Assembly: GCA_025056735.1 (NCBI GenBank) | Contig: JANWVR010000057.1 | Location: 1 to 64,000, forward strand | DNA: 64,000 bases | DNA from: Saprospiraceae bacterium | Lineage (GTDB): Bacteria > Bacteroidota > Bacteroidia > Chitinophagales > Saprospiraceae | Direction: 5' to 3' | Shown: positions 16,714 to 25,964 of the stretch, piece after piece | Position numbering within the stretch: position 1 is the first letter of the stretch | Layout: each line of letters starts with the position of its first letter | The notes under the pieces: generated by a model | What the model was told of the DNA's origin: nothing | Seen by the model: the letters and a program-made list of their open reading frames with translations, nothing else | Database searches by the model: none | Made by a program: the position numbers and the translations under genes

Positions 16714-17427
16714 CTATCCGGCGCTGCTTTTGCCCATCAAAAACACCGTTGGTCGGGCTGCCAGCGTCAGTTTCTGCTCACGCCAGGCCCGCACAGGCTG
16801 GGTGCGGACAAACGCTTCCGGGCCGGTCAGGTCTTGCGATACGCTCAGCAGAGTGTCGGCTCGCAAGGCCATCAGGGCCACCTCGAATATCCAGGGCGCC
16901 CGGTAGGGTGTCTCCATAAATATCTGCGTCTGGTCGTGCTGCCGCGCCTGCTGCTCCAACTGCCGCAACTGCCGCACCAACTCGGGCCGTTTAGGCGACA
17001 AATAACCGTGAAAAGCAAAACGCTGGCCATTAAGGCCCGAAGCCATCAGCGCCAACAAAACAGACGAGGGCCCCACCAGCGGAACCACCAGCACGCCCAT
17101 GCGATGCGCCAGCGCTACCAACGCTGCTCCCGGGTCAGCAACGCCCGGGCACCCCGCCTCTGAGAGCAAACCCACATCGCGCTCCTGCCGCAGGGCCTGC
17201 TCAAAGACCTCTACCACCTCTGGCGTCAGCCCGCCTTCGCGATCTAACTCGACAAACGTTAGTTCGCTCAGCGGACGCAGCGGTGCTACGCGCTTGATAA
17301 AATGACGCGCCGTGCGGGCGCGCTCTACCACAAACACCTCTAAGCGCCGCGCTACCTCCGCCGTGGCAGGTGGCAGAGTGTCAAAAGCCGCTTCGGAAAT
17401 GGGCGTGGGAATGAGATAAAGCGTCAA
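16714..17427 (-). CDS. SAM-dependent methyltransferase, tetrapyrrole-methylase fold (RsmI-like)
   Basis: MTLYLIPTPISEAAF; VGLLSEAGCPGVADPGAALVALAHRMGVLVVPLVGPSSVLLALMASGL. Confidence 0.85.
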   Translation of the reverse strand: MTLYLIPTPISEAAFDTLPPATAEVARRLEVFVVERARTARHFIKRVAPLRPLSELTFVELDREGGLTPEVVEVFEQALRQERDVGLLSEAGCPGVADPGAALVALAHRMGVLVVPLVGPSSVLLALMASGLNGQRFAFHGYLSPKRPELVRQLRQLEQQARQHDQTQIFMETPYRAPWIFEVALMALRADTLLSVSQDLTGPEAFVRTQPVRAWREQKLTLAARPTVFLMGKSSAG

Positions 17428-17489
17428 AGCAGGGTAGGGTGAACTTGGGCTAAAAAAACGCCCAAAAGTAATGGCCTGTGGGTGGTTTG

Positions 17490-17497
17490 TATCTTTG
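17490..17497 (+). promoter_or_regulatory. -7 box TATCTTTG directly upstream of the palindrome array and scpA
   Basis: TAnnTTTG match ending 11 nt before the first palindrome. Confidence 0.5.
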
Positions 17498-17507
17498 CAG
17501 TTGCTGG

Positions 17508-17798
17508 GCCAAACAAGTTTGGCCGTTACTTAGCCAAACAAGTTTGGCCGTTACTTAGCCAAACAAGTTTGGCGGCTACTTAGCCAAACAAGTTTGGCCG
17601 TTACTTAGCCAAACAAGTTTGGCGGTTACTGGGCCAAACAAGTTTGGCGGTTACTGGGCCAAACAAGTTTGGCCGCTACTTAGCCAAACAAGTTTGGCCG
17701 CTACTTAGCCAAACAAGTTTGGCCGCTACTTAGCCAAACAAGTTTGGCGGCTACTTAGCCAAACAAGTTTGGCCGCTACTTAGCCAAACAAGTTTGGC
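17508..17798 (+). repeat. Palindromic repeat array 1: 12 x GCCAAACAAGTTTGGC at exact 25-bp period
   Basis: Units start at 17508, 17533, 17558, 17583, 17608, 17633, 17658, 17683, 17708, 17733, 17758, 17783; 9-bp linkers SGYTACT(TA/GG). Confidence 0.98.
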
Positions 17799-17812
17799 GG
17801 CTACTGGGGATT

Positions 17813-18556
17813 TTGGACACGTTTACGATAAAACTTCCGGTTTTTGAGGGGCCGTTTGACCTGCTCCTGTTCTTCATCGAACGGGACGAGCTCGACATTT
17901 ACAACATTCCCATTGCTCGCATCACGCAGGACTTTTTGGATTACCTGCACCAGATGCAGACGCGCAACTTAGATGTGGCTTCGGAGTTCATCGTCGTGGC
18001 CGCTACGCTCATGCGCATCAAGGCCAAGATGCTGCTGCCGCGCAAAACCTACGACGAAGAGGGCAATGAAATAGACCCGCGCCAGGAGCTGGTAGAGCGC
18101 CTCATCGAGTACAAGCGCTATAAAAGCGTGCTCGACGAACTGCGCCGCTTAGAGGAGATCCGCTCCTTTATGGCGCCCCGCGGCTTTGCCAGCGCCGAAC
18201 TAAGCCAGCTGGCCCAAAAAGCGCTGGCCGATGCCGAATGGGAGAGCGTGTCGGCCTACCGGCTTTTGCGCGTCTTTGTGCGCCTGATAGAGCGCTTCGA
18301 GGAAAACCAACGACGCAAGCGCGTACATACGGTTTACAACTACAGCTACACCATCCAGGGCCAGCGCGAATACCTGCTCAGCCGCCTTCGGCCCAACGAG
18401 CAGACTTCGTTCGAGGAGGTATTCCTGTACTTGGAAAACCGCATGCACGCCATCGTTACCTTCTTAGCGCTCCTGGAAATGCTCAATGCGCAAGAGGTCA
18501 TCTTAGTACAAGGCGAAGGCCCCAACAACTTCTGGCTGACGCTCCCCACCCCGTAA
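17813..18556 (+). CDS. scpA: Segregation and condensation protein A (kleisin)
   Basis: FEGPFDLLLFFIERDELDIYNIPIARITQDFLDYLHQMQTRNLDVASEFIVVAATLMRIKAKMLLPR; TTG start abuts the repeat array. Confidence 0.93.
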   Translation: MDTFTIKLPVFEGPFDLLLFFIERDELDIYNIPIARITQDFLDYLHQMQTRNLDVASEFIVVAATLMRIKAKMLLPRKTYDEEGNEIDPRQELVERLIEYKRYKSVLDELRRLEEIRSFMAPRGFASAELSQLAQKALADAEWESVSAYRLLRVFVRLIERFEENQRRKRVHTVYNYSYTIQGQREYLLSRLRPNEQTSFEEVFLYLENRMHAIVTFLALLEMLNAQEVILVQGEGPNNFWLTLPTP

Positions 18557-18558
18557 CC

Positions 18559-18649
18559 GCCAAACTTGTTTGGCCCTGTAACCGCCAAACTTGTTTGGCC
18601 CCGTAACCGCCAAACTTGTTTGGCCAAGTACCGGCCAAACAAGTTTGGC
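18559..18649 (-). repeat. Palindromic repeat array 2: 4 units at 25-bp period (three in TT orientation, last in AA orientation)
   Basis: GCCAAACTTGTTTGGC at 18559, 18584, 18609; GCCAAACAAGTTTGGC at 18634. Confidence 0.97.
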
Positions 18650-18656
18650 CACCCCC

Positions 18657-20129
18657 TCACTCATACCGCTCTCCCCAAAGACTCTCCCGCTCCGGCAGAG
18701 CCGTCAGCAGCCGCTTGTGCTCTAAGTGCAACCGCAATGCTAAGCGGGCGGCCACTGAGGCAGCAGCGGCGTGCTTTTCGCGCAAGGCTTCGGCAGTGTA
18801 GTATTTGGCAATGAAGCCGGTGTCAAAATGACCTTCGACAAAAGCCGGATGCTCCATCACAAAACGCCCAAAGGGCAGTGTAGTGGCTACGCCTTCTACC
18901 TCGTATTGGTCAATAGCCTCCTTCATGCGCTGAATGGCTTCGGCGCGCGTGTGGCCCCAGACGACGAGTTTGGCTAAGAGCGGGTCATAAAAAATAGGCA
19001 CTTCCATACCTTCCTCGTAGCCGCCGTCCACGCGGATGTGTTCGCCCTGCGGCAGGCGGTAGCGCGTCAGCGTGCCGGTAGAGGGCAGGAAGTTGTTGAG
19101 TGGGTCTTCAGCGCATACGCGCAACTCGATGGCATGGCCGTGAATACTGAGGTCTTCCTGTCGGAAGGGCAGCGGCTCGCCGCGGGCCACTCGGATCTGA
19201 CATTCCACCAAGTCCAGCCCGGTGATGAACTCCGTGACCGGGTGTTCCACCTGCAGGCGGGTGTTCATTTCTAAGAAATAAAAATTTCGGTCGGCATCCA
19301 TGAGGAATTCCACTGTGCCGGCGCCTGTGTAGTTGCAGGCGCGCGCCACGCGGACAGCGGCTTCGCCCATGGCACGGCGGATTTCGGGTGTAACGATGAC
19401 GCAGGGCGCCTCTTCGACCACTTTCTGGTGGCGCCGCTGCACGGAGCATTCGCGCTCGAAGAGATAGACCACATTGCCGTGCGTATCGGCCATGATTTGC
19501 ACTTCCACGTGGCGAGGCGAGGTAACGTATTTTTCAATGAATACTGACCCATCGCCAAAAGCTGAGATGGCCTCCGACACGGCGCGCTCCATTTGCTCTT
19601 GCAGGTCTTCCTCGCGCTCCACCACGCGCATGCCCTTGCCACCGCCGCCCGCGCTGGCCTTGATGAGGATGGGATAGCCCACGCGCCGCCCGATGGCTTT
19701 GGCCGTCTCGATGTCGGTGATAGCCTCCTCGATGCCCGGCACCATAGGCACGCCAAAGCGTTTGGCAGCTTCTTTGGCGGCCAATTTGCTGCCCATCATT
19801 TCAATACTTTCGGGCGAAGGGCCAATGAAAATGAGGCCGGCCTCTTTTACCTGGCGCGCAAAGCCGGCATTTTCACTCAAAAAGCCGTAGCCCGGGTGTA
19901 TCGCATCGGCGCCGGTGCGGCGGGCAGCTTCCAAAATTTTTTCGGCCCTCAGGTAGCTCTGCGCCGAGGGCGGCGGCCCGATGCAAACGGCCTCATCGGC
20001 AAAGCGCACGTGCGGCGCCGCGCGATCGGCTTCAGAATAAACGGCAACGGTCTGGATGCCCATGCGGCGAGCGGTGCGCATGACGCGCAGGGCAATTTCG
20101 CCCCGGTTAGCGACAAGTATTTTTTTCAT
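18657..20129 (-). CDS. accC: Acetyl-CoA carboxylase biotin carboxylase subunit
   Basis: MKKILVANRGEIALRVMRTARRMGI; ASAGGGGKGMRVV; FLEMNTRLQVEHPVTE. Confidence 0.93.
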   Translation of the reverse strand: MKKILVANRGEIALRVMRTARRMGIQTVAVYSEADRAAPHVRFADEAVCIGPPPSAQSYLRAEKILEAARRTGADAIHPGYGFLSENAGFARQVKEAGLIFIGPSPESIEMMGSKLAAKEAAKRFGVPMVPGIEEAITDIETAKAIGRRVGYPILIKASAGGGGKGMRVVEREEDLQEQMERAVSEAISAFGDGSVFIEKYVTSPRHVEVQIMADTHGNVVYLFERECSVQRRHQKVVEEAPCVIVTPEIRRAMGEAAVRVARACNYTGAGTVEFLMDADRNFYFLEMNTRLQVEHPVTEFITGLDLVECQIRVARGEPLPFRQEDLSIHGHAIELRVCAEDPLNNFLPSTGTLTRYRLPQGEHIRVDGGYEEGMEVPIFYDPLLAKLVVWGHTRAEAIQRMKEAIDQYEVEGVATTLPFGRFVMEHPAFVEGHFDTGFIAKYYTAEALREKHAAAASVAARLALRLHLEHKRLLTALPERESLWGERYE

Positions 20130-20138
20130 GGGAAAAAA

Positions 20139-20972
20139 TCAGCGTTGTTTGGCGGCTAAACGGGCCTGCACGTGTTCAAATAGTCGGCGTGTTCGGTCGT
20201 CAGGCAGCCGCGCGCCCGCAAAAATGCGAACGGGCTGAATGCCGCGGACGGCATTCGTCAGGAAAATTTCCTCAGCAGCCTCAAGCGCTTCAGGTGGGAC
20301 GGCTTTTTCAGATATCGCAAGACCAGCGCCTGCAGCGGTTTCCAGCACAAAGGCGCGCATGACGCCGGCCACGCAGCCCTCGCCAAGCGGCACCGTGCAG
20401 AGCACATCGCCCTCCCACCAGAACACGTTGCTGGCCGTAGCCTCGCACACGCGCTCGAAGGCGTTGAGCACGAGCGCATCGTCCCAACCCCGTGCCTGGG
20501 CCTCGCGCGCAGCAGCCACGTAGCGAGCGCTGTTGAACGTCTTCAAGTTCGAGTAGGCGTCCACCGGCAGCCGCACCGAGGCACATACGCCAAGCGTCCG
20601 GCCGACAACCGGCCATTCCAGGGCAGCGCTTTCCAATGCCTCGGCCGTAATCAAAAACTGCGGCCGGTTATCGGTAGGCCGGTAGTAGCCGCCCGCCGAA
20701 CGCCACACCGTCAGCCGTATGCGCGCATTCGGCGGCGCCACGCACCGGATGTTTTTTTCAAAAAAAAACGCATCCCACGCCGGAGGAAGAGCGAAACCTG
20801 ACTGTATCAATCCGTTGCGCAGCCGCTCCCAATGGCGCTCCAGCAAGGGCAAACGACCGTCAAAGGCGCGCACGGTCTCAAACAGCGCATCGCCGTACAA
20901 CAGGGCGCGCTGCGCCTGCGCCCAGGCTTCGGGTAAATGCTCCAAAAGGTTACCATTCCAGTTGACGGGCAT
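20139..20972 (-). CDS. Aminotransferase class IV (aminodeoxychorismate lyase-like)
   Basis: RALLYGDALFETVRAFDGRLPLLERHWERL; FERVCEATASNVFWWEGDVLCTVPLGEGCVAGVMR. Confidence 0.85.
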   Translation of the reverse strand: MPVNWNGNLLEHLPEAWAQAQRALLYGDALFETVRAFDGRLPLLERHWERLRNGLIQSGFALPPAWDAFFFEKNIRCVAPPNARIRLTVWRSAGGYYRPTDNRPQFLITAEALESAALEWPVVGRTLGVCASVRLPVDAYSNLKTFNSARYVAAAREAQARGWDDALVLNAFERVCEATASNVFWWEGDVLCTVPLGEGCVAGVMRAFVLETAAGAGLAISEKAVPPEALEAAEEIFLTNAVRGIQPVRIFAGARLPDDRTRRLFEHVQARLAAKQR

Positions 20973-21071
20973 GGCGCTTTTTGCTGCAAAGACACGAAAG
21001 TTTTTCCTTCAGAATGCCGGGCCTCTCCACCCACGAGAAGAGTTTGCACCAAAAGCCAATTTCTTCGACGC

Positions 21072-21103
21072 TATTCGCAAAAAAAGCGTTATTTTTGCGA
21101 ATA
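21072..21103. promoter_or_regulatory. 12-bp perfect inverted repeat overlapping a -7 box upstream of the ATPase gene
   Basis: TATTCGCAAAAA (21072-21083) / TTTTTGCGAATA (21092-21103); TATTTTTG at 21090-21097; ATG at 21117. Confidence 0.6.
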
Positions 21104-21116
21104 CAATCTATAAAAT

Positions 21117-22241
21117 ATGATAAAACGCCTGCTTGAGTCAAAAATCCGGGAAAGATTATTCAAAGGAAAAGCCATCATCCTCACCGGACCGAGGCAAACG
21201 GGAAAGACAACCCTGCTAAAGCAAATTTTCGATGGCATGCGCGATGTCCTGTGGCTGAATGGCGACGACATAGAGACGCGAATACTGCTGGAAGAGGTTA
21301 GTACCTCGAAGTGGAGCCGCATTATTAAATCTGCTAAAGTCGTTGTCGTGGACGAAGCGCAGCGCATTCGCGACATTGGCATCAAGCTCAAACTCGTTAC
21401 GGACCAATTTCCAGCGGTACAATTAGTGGCATCTGGCTCTTCGACGCTGGAACTGGCAAACCAGATTAACGAGCCGCTCACCGGACGGAAATGGCACTAT
21501 CAGCTCTTTCCGCTTTCTTACGAGGAAATGGAAGCCCATCACGGATTTGTTGAAGAAAACCGCAGGCTCTCCGACCGCTTGGTTTATGGCAGCTATCCCG
21601 AGGTGGTCAGCCATCCCGACGAAGCCAGAGATATCTTGAGCCAGTTAGCAGATAGCTTTTTGTACAAAGACATTCTGATGTGGGAACGCATCAAAAAGCC
21701 CGAAAAGTTGATGAAGCTACTCCAAGCGCTGGCATTTCAATTAGGCAATGAGGTTTCTTACCACGAACTGGGCCAGATCACGGATTTGGACAACCAAACC
21801 ATTGAGAACTACATCACCCTGCTCGAGCAAACGTTTATCCTATTCCGGCTACCGCCTTTGAGTAGAAACTTGCGTAAAGAGTTGAAAACCAAACGCAAGA
21901 TATACTTCTACGACAACGGTATTCGCAATGCGCTCATTGCGCAATATCAGCCGCCGGAGCTGCGCCAGGATATGGGCGCCTTATGGGAAAACTGGTTCAT
22001 CAGCGAACGCAAAAAATGGCTGCATTATCACAGCATATACGCCAATACCTATTTCTGGCGCACGCAAGACCAGCAAGAGATTGACTACGTGGAAGAGCGC
22101 GATGGGTTCATGTGGGCATACGAAATCAAATGGGGTACTAAAGCCAAAGCCCACTTTTCAAAGACCTTCAGAGACGCTTATCCACAGCATCACACTCAGG
22201 TGGTGCACCGAGACAATTTTTTCGAGTTCCTGGCGCATTAA
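21117..22241 (+). CDS. AAA-family ATP-binding protein with DUF4143-like C-terminus
   Basis: KAIILTGPRQTGKTTLLKQIF; VVVVDEAQRIRDIG; C-terminal ALWENWFISERKKW...QEIDYVEERDGFMWAYEIKWGTK. Confidence 0.88.
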   Translation: MIKRLLESKIRERLFKGKAIILTGPRQTGKTTLLKQIFDGMRDVLWLNGDDIETRILLEEVSTSKWSRIIKSAKVVVVDEAQRIRDIGIKLKLVTDQFPAVQLVASGSSTLELANQINEPLTGRKWHYQLFPLSYEEMEAHHGFVEENRRLSDRLVYGSYPEVVSHPDEARDILSQLADSFLYKDILMWERIKKPEKLMKLLQALAFQLGNEVSYHELGQITDLDNQTIENYITLLEQTFILFRLPPLSRNLRKELKTKRKIYFYDNGIRNALIAQYQPPELRQDMGALWENWFISERKKWLHYHSIYANTYFWRTQDQQEIDYVEERDGFMWAYEIKWGTKAKAHFSKTFRDAYPQHHTQVVHRDNFFEFLAH

Positions 22242-22254
22242 GGCGCCTTAATGC
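22235..22254. repeat. Perfect 20-bp palindrome GCATTAAGGCGCCTTAATGC covering the ATPase stop codon
   Basis: Direct reading; TAA stop at 22239-22241 lies in the left arm. Confidence 0.9.
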
Positions 22255-22366
22255 CGTACTTTATACGTTTGTTTATCGCTCATTTTAGGCGACTTAAATC
22301 GCAAGAGGCGCGTGGCCGAGCCACGGTAGCATTCAGTTGGGCCGTTGTTGCTTGCCCTGAGCTGCT

Positions 22367-23323
22367 TCAATACCGCTTCACCGACTCAATAATGTACAGC
22401 GGTCGGTTTTTGATTTCGCGGTAGATGTTGGCTAAGTAGATAGACATGAGGTACAGGTTGAGGCACGTTACAGCGAAGAAGACCGACACGAGTACCACGA
22501 GGTAGGCCCATCCGGGCACGGTTTCGTGGTATTGGCCCAGGAAGTCCACGTTCGTCAGACGCACCTTGATGGCGTTGGCGATGGCGGCTGCCGCGATGAC
22601 GCACGAGAGCAGAAAAATCCAGCCCAGCAGGGCGCTGAGGAAGGAGGTGAAGGACGTGATGGCCACCAATGCGCTTTTGAATTGTTCGCCGAAGGTGATG
22701 CCTGGCTCAGGTTCGAGCGGTTGGGCCACGTCTATGGCGGCGGTGTTGTAGCCCACCAAGGCGTAGAGGGCTTTCAGGTAGTGGCTGTTTTCGCGCAGGC
22801 GCAGCAGCGAGTTGAGGGCGCGGCGGCTGATGATGCGCGTGTGGTGGGCGCGCGCGTCTAAGCGCAGGTTAGAATAGCGGTGCAGGATGCCGTAGAAGGC
22901 GCTGTACATGAGGCGATAGTGCCAGGGCAGGCGGCGCTGGGGCGCGCGCAGATAGACGATGTCGAAGCCCGTTTGGGCCTTTTCCCACAGGGTGCGGACG
23001 AGGTGTGGGCTGTCGGCAAAGGAAAACTCGAACACCACAGCGTAGTCTCCGTTGGCGCGGTCGAGGCCCGCCATGATGGCGTTGTCGCGGCTGACGGGCG
23101 CGCTCAGGTTGAGCAGGAACACATTCTGCCGCAGCGCCTGCGGAAGCGGCTCCAAAGCAGCATCTATTGCCTGGCGGTCGCAATGGTTGTTGATGAGCAC
23201 AAACTCGAAATCGCTGAAATGGGCCGACAGCTCCGCGTGTAGCCCTGCGAGCCACGAAGCCAGGCTCTCGATGTTCCGCTGCGTATGAATAACCCCAATA
23301 ACCGATATAAATGACTGACGCAT
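22367..23323 (-). CDS. Glycosyltransferase family 2 (DPM1/DPM3-like, two C-terminal TM helices)
   Basis: MRQSFISVIGVIHTQRNIESLASWLAGLHAELSAHFSDFEFVLINNHCD; C-terminal TM helices. N-terminal extension in the ORF track is repeat-derived. Confidence 0.8.
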   Translation of the reverse strand: MRQSFISVIGVIHTQRNIESLASWLAGLHAELSAHFSDFEFVLINNHCDRQAIDAALEPLPQALRQNVFLLNLSAPVSRDNAIMAGLDRANGDYAVVFEFSFADSPHLVRTLWEKAQTGFDIVYLRAPQRRLPWHYRLMYSAFYGILHRYSNLRLDARAHHTRIISRRALNSLLRLRENSHYLKALYALVGYNTAAIDVAQPLEPEPGITFGEQFKSALVAITSFTSFLSALLGWIFLLSCVIAAAAIANAIKVRLTNVDFLGQYHETVPGWAYLVVLVSVFFAVTCLNLYLMSIYLANIYREIKNRPLYIIESVKRY

Positions 23324-23337
23324 AACCCCAAGTAACC

Positions 23338-23428
23338 GCCAAACTTGTTTGGCCAAGTAACCGCCAAACTTGTTTGGCCAAGTAACCGCCAAACTTGTTT
23401 GGCCAAGTACCGACCAAACTTGTTTGGT
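23338..23428 (-). repeat. Palindromic repeat array 3: 4 units at 25-bp period, upstream of the GT2 gene
   Basis: GCCAAACTTGTTTGGC at 23338, 23363, 23388 and variant ACCAAACTTGTTTGGT at 23413. Confidence 0.97.
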
Positions 23429-23940: not shown

Positions 23941-24001
23941 GTGCTCAAAATTGCTCGCTCAGAGTAAAAACCCTACCCATTAGCCCCAAGCGACTATTTT
24001 T

Positions 24002-24068
24002 CACTTTTCACTTTCCACTTTCCACTTTTCACTTTTCACTTTTCATTTTCCACTTTTCATTTTCCACT
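24002..24068. repeat. Heptamer tandem repeat, about 9.6 copies of CAYTTTY
   Basis: CACTTTT CACTTTC CACTTTC CACTTTT CACTTTT CACTTTT CATTTTC CACTTTT CATTTTC CACT. Confidence 0.95.
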
Positions 24069-25964
24069 CGCCTTGACCAATTCCACCATGCTCTGCATTT
24101 CGGCCACCAAGGCATCGTTGTCGCCCGAGAAGCCGATGCTCTTGAAGCGGATGCGGCCTTGTTTATCCACGACGAACTTGGTAGGGATGCCAGAGACGCC
24201 GTAGGCGGTTACGACCTGGTTATCGTTGTCCATGAGGACCTCGAAGGTGTAGCCCTTGCTGTTGATGAAGTCGGCGGCGTTTTTCTCCTTGTTGGCGGCG
24301 TTTTCCCAGGTATCCACGAAGAGGAAGACCACTTCCGGGTCGTTTTTATAGAGGTCTTGGGCTTTTTGCATGCCGGGGAAGGAAGCCTTGCAAGGGCCGC
24401 ACCACGTGGCCCAGAAGTCAATGACGACCACTTTGCCGCGCAGGTTTTCGAGGCTTACTTCTTTGCCGGCCAGGTTTTTGAGGCGGAAGGCAGGCGCGGG
24501 TTGGTCAATCATTTTGGCAGCCAGTTCCTTTCTCTGGTGTTCGCGGGCTTTTTTCTCCAATTGAGATAAGTAGGCGTCGGCGCCAGCAGCAGATTTGTCT
24601 TCGGCAGCGTAGAGGCGTTTGAACTGCTCTTTCATGGCCTGAGTGGCTTTGCCCTGCATGATAAAGCCTTCCAGGCGGTAGCGCAGTTCGGGGGATTTTG
24701 CTTGCTCTAAGTATTTGGTGTAGCGTTCGTTGATTTCGGCCTCTTTGCCTTTGCTGTATTCGACGACGCGGGTCTGGTAGGCTAAGGCGGCTTCGTGTTG
24801 GCCTTGCTGGCTAAGGATAAAGGCGTAGGTATCGGCGTACTGCGCGAAGGCGAAGCGCAGGTTTTCCTCCCAGTCAGCGTAGGGCATGTAGAGTGGCTTA
24901 GGGGCCTTGGGCTCGCGGATTTCGTTTTCAGCCCATTGAGTGGCTTCTAAGGCCATGGCATGGGCTTGCTCCAGATGTTCACCGTTTTCGGCCAGTTCCC
25001 AGGCAGTGTTGTTGTAGAGGCTGGCGCGGGCATCTGGAGTCATTTGGGCGGCGTAGGCTTTGCCTTTTTCCCAGTTTTTTTCGCCGAGGGCTTTTATGGC
25101 CAGCAGGCTGTACAGTTGGCTGAGCTCCTGTTTTTCTTCGTCGGTAGCGGGCGGGAACTCCTTCTGGTATTTTTCTATGGCCTGTTCCAATTGAGTGGCA
25201 TCGGTCATGGTGCGTATTTCGCGCTGGCGCGTTTGGCGGGCGTAGATGCCTTTAGGGTAGTCGCGTTTCATGCGTTCGCGCAGCTGGTTGGCTTCTTCGG
25301 AGGCGCCGAGGCGGTCGAGCAGGCGCGCGATGGCAATGAGTTCCTTTTCGGCGGCCTGATCGCTCTTTGCTGCGGCTTTGAGCACGTCCAAGGCTTCTTT
25401 TTTGCCGTCGTCGCCGCGTTTGACGGCCATCAGGCAGTTGGCATAGGCTGAAGCGAAGGTATTCTTCAGGCGGGCGTCGGCCTTGAAGGCGCGCTCGAAG
25501 AGTTCCTGGGCGACGTTGGCTTTGCGGTCTAAGTCGGCCAAGCTGCCCCAGTCGCGATACATCACGGCATGGGCGGCCCAGCTGGCGGGCAGCACTTCGC
25601 CTTTAGCGTTGTGCAGGTGGATGAAGTAGCCCTGGCCCTGGTTGTTGTCTGTGCGTTCGCCGGCTTTGAAGACCACGAGCAACACAGCGGCGTCCTGGCC
25701 TGAGCTGATGTGTCCGTGCGCCCGTTGCGCGTCGCGGTAGGCATATACTGGCAGCGTGCGCGGTTGGTCGGCGGCGTATTCAAAAACGATGATTTCCACG
25801 GGCTCGGTGCTGTTGGCCAGCGGGCTTTTCGTCAGGTCGTATTCCAGCAAAATCAGCTGCCCCGGCTGAGGGCGCTCGGGCGTGATTTTGAGCAAACTCG
25901 ATTGGGAAAAAGCGCTAAAAGCAACGGCTGACAGCAGCCAGCAAAGAGATAGGTATTTTTTCAT
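24057..25964 (-). CDS. TlpA-like thioredoxin-domain protein with long N-terminal region
   Basis: C-terminal LAGKEVSLENLRGKVVVIDFWATWCGPCKASFPGMQKAQ (CxxC); N-terminal signal peptide. Confidence 0.9.
   Translation of the reverse strand: MKKYLSLCWLLSAVAFSAFSQSSLLKITPERPQPGQLILLEYDLTKSPLANSTEPVEIIVFEYAADQPRTLPVYAYRDAQRAHGHISSGQDAAVLLVVFKAGERTDNNQGQGYFIHLHNAKGEVLPASWAAHAVMYRDWGSLADLDRKANVAQELFERAFKADARLKNTFASAYANCLMAVKRGDDGKKEALDVLKAAAKSDQAAEKELIAIARLLDRLGASEEANQLRERMKRDYPKGIYARQTRQREIRTMTDATQLEQAIEKYQKEFPPATDEEKQELSQLYSLLAIKALGEKNWEKGKAYAAQMTPDARASLYNNTAWELAENGEHLEQAHAMALEATQWAENEIREPKAPKPLYMPYADWEENLRFAFAQYADTYAFILSQQGQHEAALAYQTRVVEYSKGKEAEINERYTKYLEQAKSPELRYRLEGFIMQGKATQAMKEQFKRLYAAEDKSAAGADAYLSQLEKKAREHQRKELAAKMIDQPAPAFRLKNLAGKEVSLENLRGKVVVIDFWATWCGPCKASFPGMQKAQDLYKNDPEVVFLFVDTWENAANKEKNAADFINSKGYTFEVLMDNDNQVVTAYGVSGIPTKFVVDKQGRIRFKSIGFSGDNDALVAEMQSMVELVKASGK

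Follow-up and report, generated by a model that had tools for sequence, protein, structure and literature searches.

The genome to which the window (the whole 64-kb stretch of Saprospiraceae DNA that was analysed) belongs carries a palindromic hairpin unit about 200 times between its genes. This family is probably a relic of REP elements whose copies persist, and multiply in tandem, in the absence of their transposase. We think it likely that an old REP family lost or outlived its transposase, was kept in place and multiplied locally through slippage or recombination. A GTAAC foot, head-to-tail arrays and the missing transposase set it apart from known REP families.

Three arrays in the window

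The initial annotation reported 20 units in three arrays in a 25-bp register, which a mismatch search and TRF bore out. GCCAAACWWGTTTGGC matches the window at 20 places with at most three mismatches (12 at 17508-17798, four at 18559-18649 and four at 23338-23428), whereas shuffled sequences gave 1.45 on average and never more than four, and TRF reports period 25 in arrays 1, 2 and 3. All units are perfect except the last one, ACCAAACTTGTTTGGT (19/20), and the rest of the window is free of full copies, as had been stated.

Array 1 (17508..17804, + strand) consists of 12 head-to-tail units, each GCCAAACAAGTTTGGC followed by SGYTAC(TKR), with AA on the + strand and linkers that vary from unit to unit. 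It lies between the divergent genes for a TP_methylase (rsmI-like, 16714-17427, minus strand) and scpA (17813-18556, plus strand), and 8 nt separate its end from the TTG start codon of scpA. Upstream of the array, the sequence TATCTTTG (17489..17496, + strand), read by eye, matches TAnnTTTG, which we take to be the Bacteroidota -7 type promoter motif; this putative promoter would put array 1 inside the scpA leader, and the array, if transcribed, is predicted to form a strongly folded one. The sister species G035 (CALJPQ) keeps GGTTTGTATCTTTGC and has two units at the orthologous site.

Array 2 (18553..18649, minus strand) is made up of three units with a GTAAC foot (TT on the + strand) and one inverted unit (AA on the + strand), between the convergent genes for scpA and biotin carboxylase (18657-20129, minus strand). 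The scpA stop codon (18554-18556) is the TAA of the first foot of this array, and the two units at this site in G035 have the same stop arrangement. Array 3 (23332..23428, minus strand) lies between co-directional genes and comprises four units whose GTAAC foot faces the start of the gene at 22367-23323 (minus strand) at a distance of 8 nt; in its outermost unit a G-C pair is replaced by A-T, a compensatory change (ACCAAAC..GTTTGGT), and the site has two units in G035. Two details complete the initial description: array 2 is mixed in polarity, and it lies between convergent genes and is upstream of none. The gene beside array 3, initially labelled GT2, gave no Pfam match at 1e-5. A separate heptamer tandem repeat, TTTTCAC in about ten copies, occupies 23998-24068 of the window and reaches the end of the gene at 24057-25895 (minus strand).

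A genome-wide family of polar hairpin units

The initial annotation reckoned with a local expansion or an assembly artefact should the genome hold no further copies of the core. The genome (G000; 3.74 Mb, 152 contigs) holds 176 exact cores and none of the reversed control, so that further copies clearly exist, and 223 places (111+112 on the two strands) lie within two mismatches of the 22-mer formed by core plus foot. These units form about 60 sites, nearly all of them head-to-tail at 25 or 26 bp apart from a few inverted edge units, and the unit counts are lower bounds because several arrays reach contig ends (C11, C28, C48, C53 and C110 stop within ~100 nt of them). A 25-bp palindromic unit in high copy between genes agrees with REPs in the general sense, which are extragenic palindromes of 20-40 bp. 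At one locus (L113 7212-7535, contig 49 of G000) five units recur at period 77 rather than 25, apparently through tandem duplication of a longer segment that contains a single REP unit.

On the strand that carries TT, a unit begins with a 5-nt foot, followed by 1 nt and the 16-nt palindrome, which is the layout of a REP element. The feet of the 235 G000 units distinct by context are mainly GTAAC (128), GTAGC (34) and GTACC (29), and the predicted single-stranded DNA fold has a 6-bp stem and a 4-nt loop, CTTG. The stem is preserved by complementary changes, as in REPs: two-sided Watson-Crick changes of the arms number 27 in G000 (19 when counted as distinct per array) against 3.2 two-sided changes of any kind expected by independence, and 18 against 3.0 in G035, although these changes are not fully independent because the units are in tandem and share ancestry. 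Such paired changes could also stem from template-switch correction of imperfect palindromes, an alternative to selection. Linkers are more similar within arrays than between them (0.85 vs 0.70, p ~0.0005), which points to local duplication. No such array is present in viral contigs, and we found no literature report of the 16-mer core or of REPs in Saprospiraceae.

Placement relative to genes

With gene borders taken from a simple codon-usage gene caller, only two of 76 clusters lie inside a called gene. Co-directional genes flank 46 clusters, convergent genes 11 and divergent genes seven, and the intergenic sequence of these three types amounts to 33.0, 6.0 and 20.4 kb, respectively; units are thus depleted between divergent genes. 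Where the foot faces the end of a gene, its TAA or TAG is in many cases that gene's own stop codon (offset 2): 17 of the 38 head-to-stop cases are of this kind in G000, 19 of the 41 in G035. No comparable peak at stop codons is seen on the tail side, and other units lie close to start codons. A foot that supplies stop codons and a location downstream of genes are both features of the GTAG superfamily of REPs.

Conservation in the sister species

The scpA gene of G035, a Saprospiraceae MAG, is 95% identical to that of G000, and the G035 genome contains 71 exact cores. Both flanks allowed 40 of the 62 G000 sites to be compared with the stretches obtained from G035. A unit is present at the orthologous position in 37 of these 40, a proportion biased upward because the G035 stretches came mainly from around its own copies (the lower bound is 37/62). 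At the 37 shared sites the core is exact in both species in 31 cases, the orientation agrees in 33, and the number of units is higher in G000 in 30; G035 usually has one or two units per site, and G000 has up to 12. The flanks of shared sites are 82% identical, at which level an unconstrained 16-mer would remain identical in ~4% of cases.

Core conservation of this degree could mean that host selection acts on something that is not a REP. One form of this idea, which we regard as possible if rather unlikely, is that the host took over the REPs after the loss of the transposase, selection fixing their places and the tandem arrays being functional in RNA end protection or as targets of a chromosome-structuring protein. 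If it is true, a former mobile element has become a regulatory or structural feature of the host.

We consider it unlikely that the units are simply host-maintained sites at which the palindrome binds a dimeric protein, either a nucleoid organiser or a regulator, with tandem copies raising occupancy. The perfect 16-nt dyads at orthologous places in spite of ~18% divergence would fit such sites, and so would their number, ~60-75 per genome in G000 and G035, which is of the order known for nucleoid-organising sites. Binding sites of the parS, matS and Noc types are likewise short palindromes present at tens of sites, and the G000 units differ from them in the polar foot, the stop-codon register and the paired arm changes. 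Symmetric double changes such as GCTAAAC..GTTTAGC, ACCAAAC..GTTTGGT and GCCGAAC..GTTCGGC keep the pairing and yet alter both half-sites; divergent promoter regions are depleted of units; the 25-26 bp spacing does not correspond to an integral number of helical turns; and protein binding does not account for the asymmetry of the foot or for its register with stop codons. We know of no protein that binds this palindrome.

A role as an RNA element appears quite improbable; in this reading the hairpins would be selected for stabilising mRNA 3' ends, for attenuation or as structured leaders. Array 1 has a predicted fold of -158.5 kcal/mol (z -6.7) and arrays 2 and 3 are also predicted to fold strongly with DNA parameters, but palindromes fold in both orientations, and folding by itself is therefore no evidence for an RNA element. 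The position of units near stop codons, and elsewhere near start codons, would suit such a role. On the transcribed strand, however, G.U pairs are not in excess over A.C mismatches (10 vs 10 in G000, 8 vs 10 in G035), a T run after the hairpin is not consistently present in the sequence, and an Rfam search of the whole window gave no match. The structured leader envisaged initially is not supported as a general role, since 5' leaders make up a minority of the sites and the G.U bias that would indicate selection at the RNA level is lacking.

Distribution in relatives and the search for a transposase

The other congeners searched have one exact core at most; G002, which has the next-closest scpA (88%), contains a single full unit besides two weak ones. 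Core plus foot was matched in three of 399 sampled genomes of the order, and a scan for paired units in a collection of 84,980 species, which may omit the window's own genome, returned only CALJPQ, JALHQW and JACRAN, all labelled Saprospiraceae or Bacteroidetes. JALHQW (G065) and JACRAN (G066, which appears to be the same as G254, in the same family as G000 and a different genus) are relatives from other lineages, and both carry RAYT-type (Y1) transposases. In G065 the core occurs in classical inverted REP pairs, GTAGCC-core-TGGCT...AGCCA-core-GGCTAC, predicted to fold as one long hairpin, and G066 has variant forms of these pairs. Around scpA and its neighbours, congeners have other species-specific tandem repeats of 7-10 bp, often in inverted blocks, e.g. 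GGGTCATTAA / AATGACCCTT (L076 1432-1488 and 2240-2453; L082 1155-1245 and 1397-1498; L088 1353-1491); the arms of the L088 block are 62 nt long and 95% complementary.

The initial annotation also raised a co-occurring RAYT-type transposase, and none was found: neither G000 nor G035, both scored 100% complete, has a match to Y1_Tnp (PF01797) at E <= 0.001, the best sub-threshold match in G000 (E 0.31) falling inside a 2595-codon frame. A Y1 transposase is present in 33 of the 41 genomes of the genus searched. At 35 RAYT-type loci of relatives we counted 14 GTARC-tagged hairpins, located at five loci, as against at most four for scrambled tags and three at scpA control loci; none of the 35 RAYT genes is flanked by the palindrome described here, and five are flanked by other GTARC hairpins. 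One RAYT gene, on contig 41 of G065, lies less than 2 kb from a core pair; different tandem repeats form its borders, and we do not claim it as the cognate enzyme. There the Y1 gene (L227 11850-13300) sits between tandem arrays of other repeats, e.g. CCCGTAGGGACGCAAC, which are apparently that gene's own REP family. The hairpin GTAACNNAGGGC beside RAYT genes in G022 and G064 was rejected as a dispersed family, being single-copy per genome. Just upstream of a Y1 gene, in both G022 (L055 1272) and G064 (L062 645), lies a GTAAC-tagged hairpin, GTAACAYAGGGC..GCCCTRTG, that is found a single time in each genome.

It is very doubtful that the units are still mobile, spread at present by a transposase of another family or by a RAYT missing from the assembly. 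The high uniformity of the core would agree with ongoing spread, and repeats do break contigs, so that a repeat-flanked gene may be absent from an assembly; against it stand the completeness of both genomes without a Y1 match and the fact that most comparable sites are common to both species, which leaves few new ones. The suggestion of a REP-like short mobile repeat is well supported in its first part, through the genome-wide extragenic distribution, the polar foot, the stop-codon overlap, the paired arms and the inverted pairs in relatives that have RAYT-type transposases, while present mobility is not supported, as a RAYT was found neither in G000 nor in its sister.

Three further candidates are rejected: a parS-like cluster of binding sites, as first proposed, would be a few ParB-bound clusters near the origin and the units are scattered over ~60 sites on dozens of contigs; an intrinsic terminator is contradicted by the lack of a consistent T run, the scanner matches in array 1 being the repeat itself; and CRISPR, already discounted initially, does not fit linkers of 9-10 nt, most of which share GNTAC, and the absence of long unique spacers.

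Comparison with known REP systems

In the part of Di Nocera et al. 2013 (PMC3733652) that describes GTAG REPs, these are extragenic, lie mostly between co-directional and convergent genes, have stems of 6-9 bp and often provide TAG stops from their foot. The G000 family resembles that description in having a short palindrome and a short loop, a foot left unpaired at one end and compensatory stem variants, and in its extragenic, co-directional or convergent placement with the foot as stop codon. It departs from it in the foot, which is mainly GTAAC instead of GT[AG]G, GTAG being present in 34 of 235 units; the G065 pairs do have GTAG. The passage of PMC3733652 concerned gives CGTC repeats, not GTAG ones, for Bacteroidetes.

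Foot and hairpin are shared with the RAYT/REPtron systems (Nunvar et al. 2010, PMC2817692; PMC6006769), and relatives of G000 have RAYT-type Y1 genes, some of them beside GTAAC- or GTAGC-tagged hairpins; TnpA-REP subclass 2.4 is reported to be abundant in Bacteroidetes (HuH survey 2018, PMC6006769). Unlike these systems, G000 and G035 have no Y1 (PF01797) gene, and no RAYT was seen flanked by this palindrome. The inverted pairs of G065 and G066, with the foot outermost, resemble REPINs (PMC3116915, PMC8049555), a two-unit inverted arrangement from which G000 differs in its single-polarity tandem arrays with few inverted neighbours. Escherichia coli genomes without RAYT also retain REPINs (PMC8049555). 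Since the foot sequence and the transposase do not agree, we class the family as a variant of the standard RAYT-associated GTAG REP.

Proposed origin of the arrays

We propose the following course for the likely case of an old REP family. The unit layout is what TnpA-REP/RAYT transposases process, as a single-stranded DNA hairpin with a foot. An ancestral cognate RAYT would have spread copies to positions next to gene ends, and there the TAA or TAG of the foot could act as a stop codon. After the presumed loss of the RAYT, the remaining copies may have been duplicated in place, by slippage or unequal recombination between the 25/26-bp units, to give head-to-tail arrays of up to 12. At present, as known for REPs, the hairpins may alter mRNA end stability or read-through from 3' or 5' untranslated RNA, and they may have local effects on the DNA. 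Further observations count against a REP reading: the foot is mostly GTAAC where described REPs have GT[AG]G, the cognate RAYT is missing from both genomes and none was seen flanked by this palindrome, and head-to-tail arrays are unusual among REPs.

The arrays resemble variable-number tandem repeats and would suit strain typing, and the GTAAC foot offers a testable variant of the RAYT guide-sequence rule in Saprospiraceae. REPs are commonly regarded as dependent on their RAYT. In the present case two species with ~82% local identity, in neither of which a RAYT was detected, share most comparable sites with near-perfect hairpins, and this offers a natural test of how REPs persist, be it through transposition, benefit to the host or copying in place.
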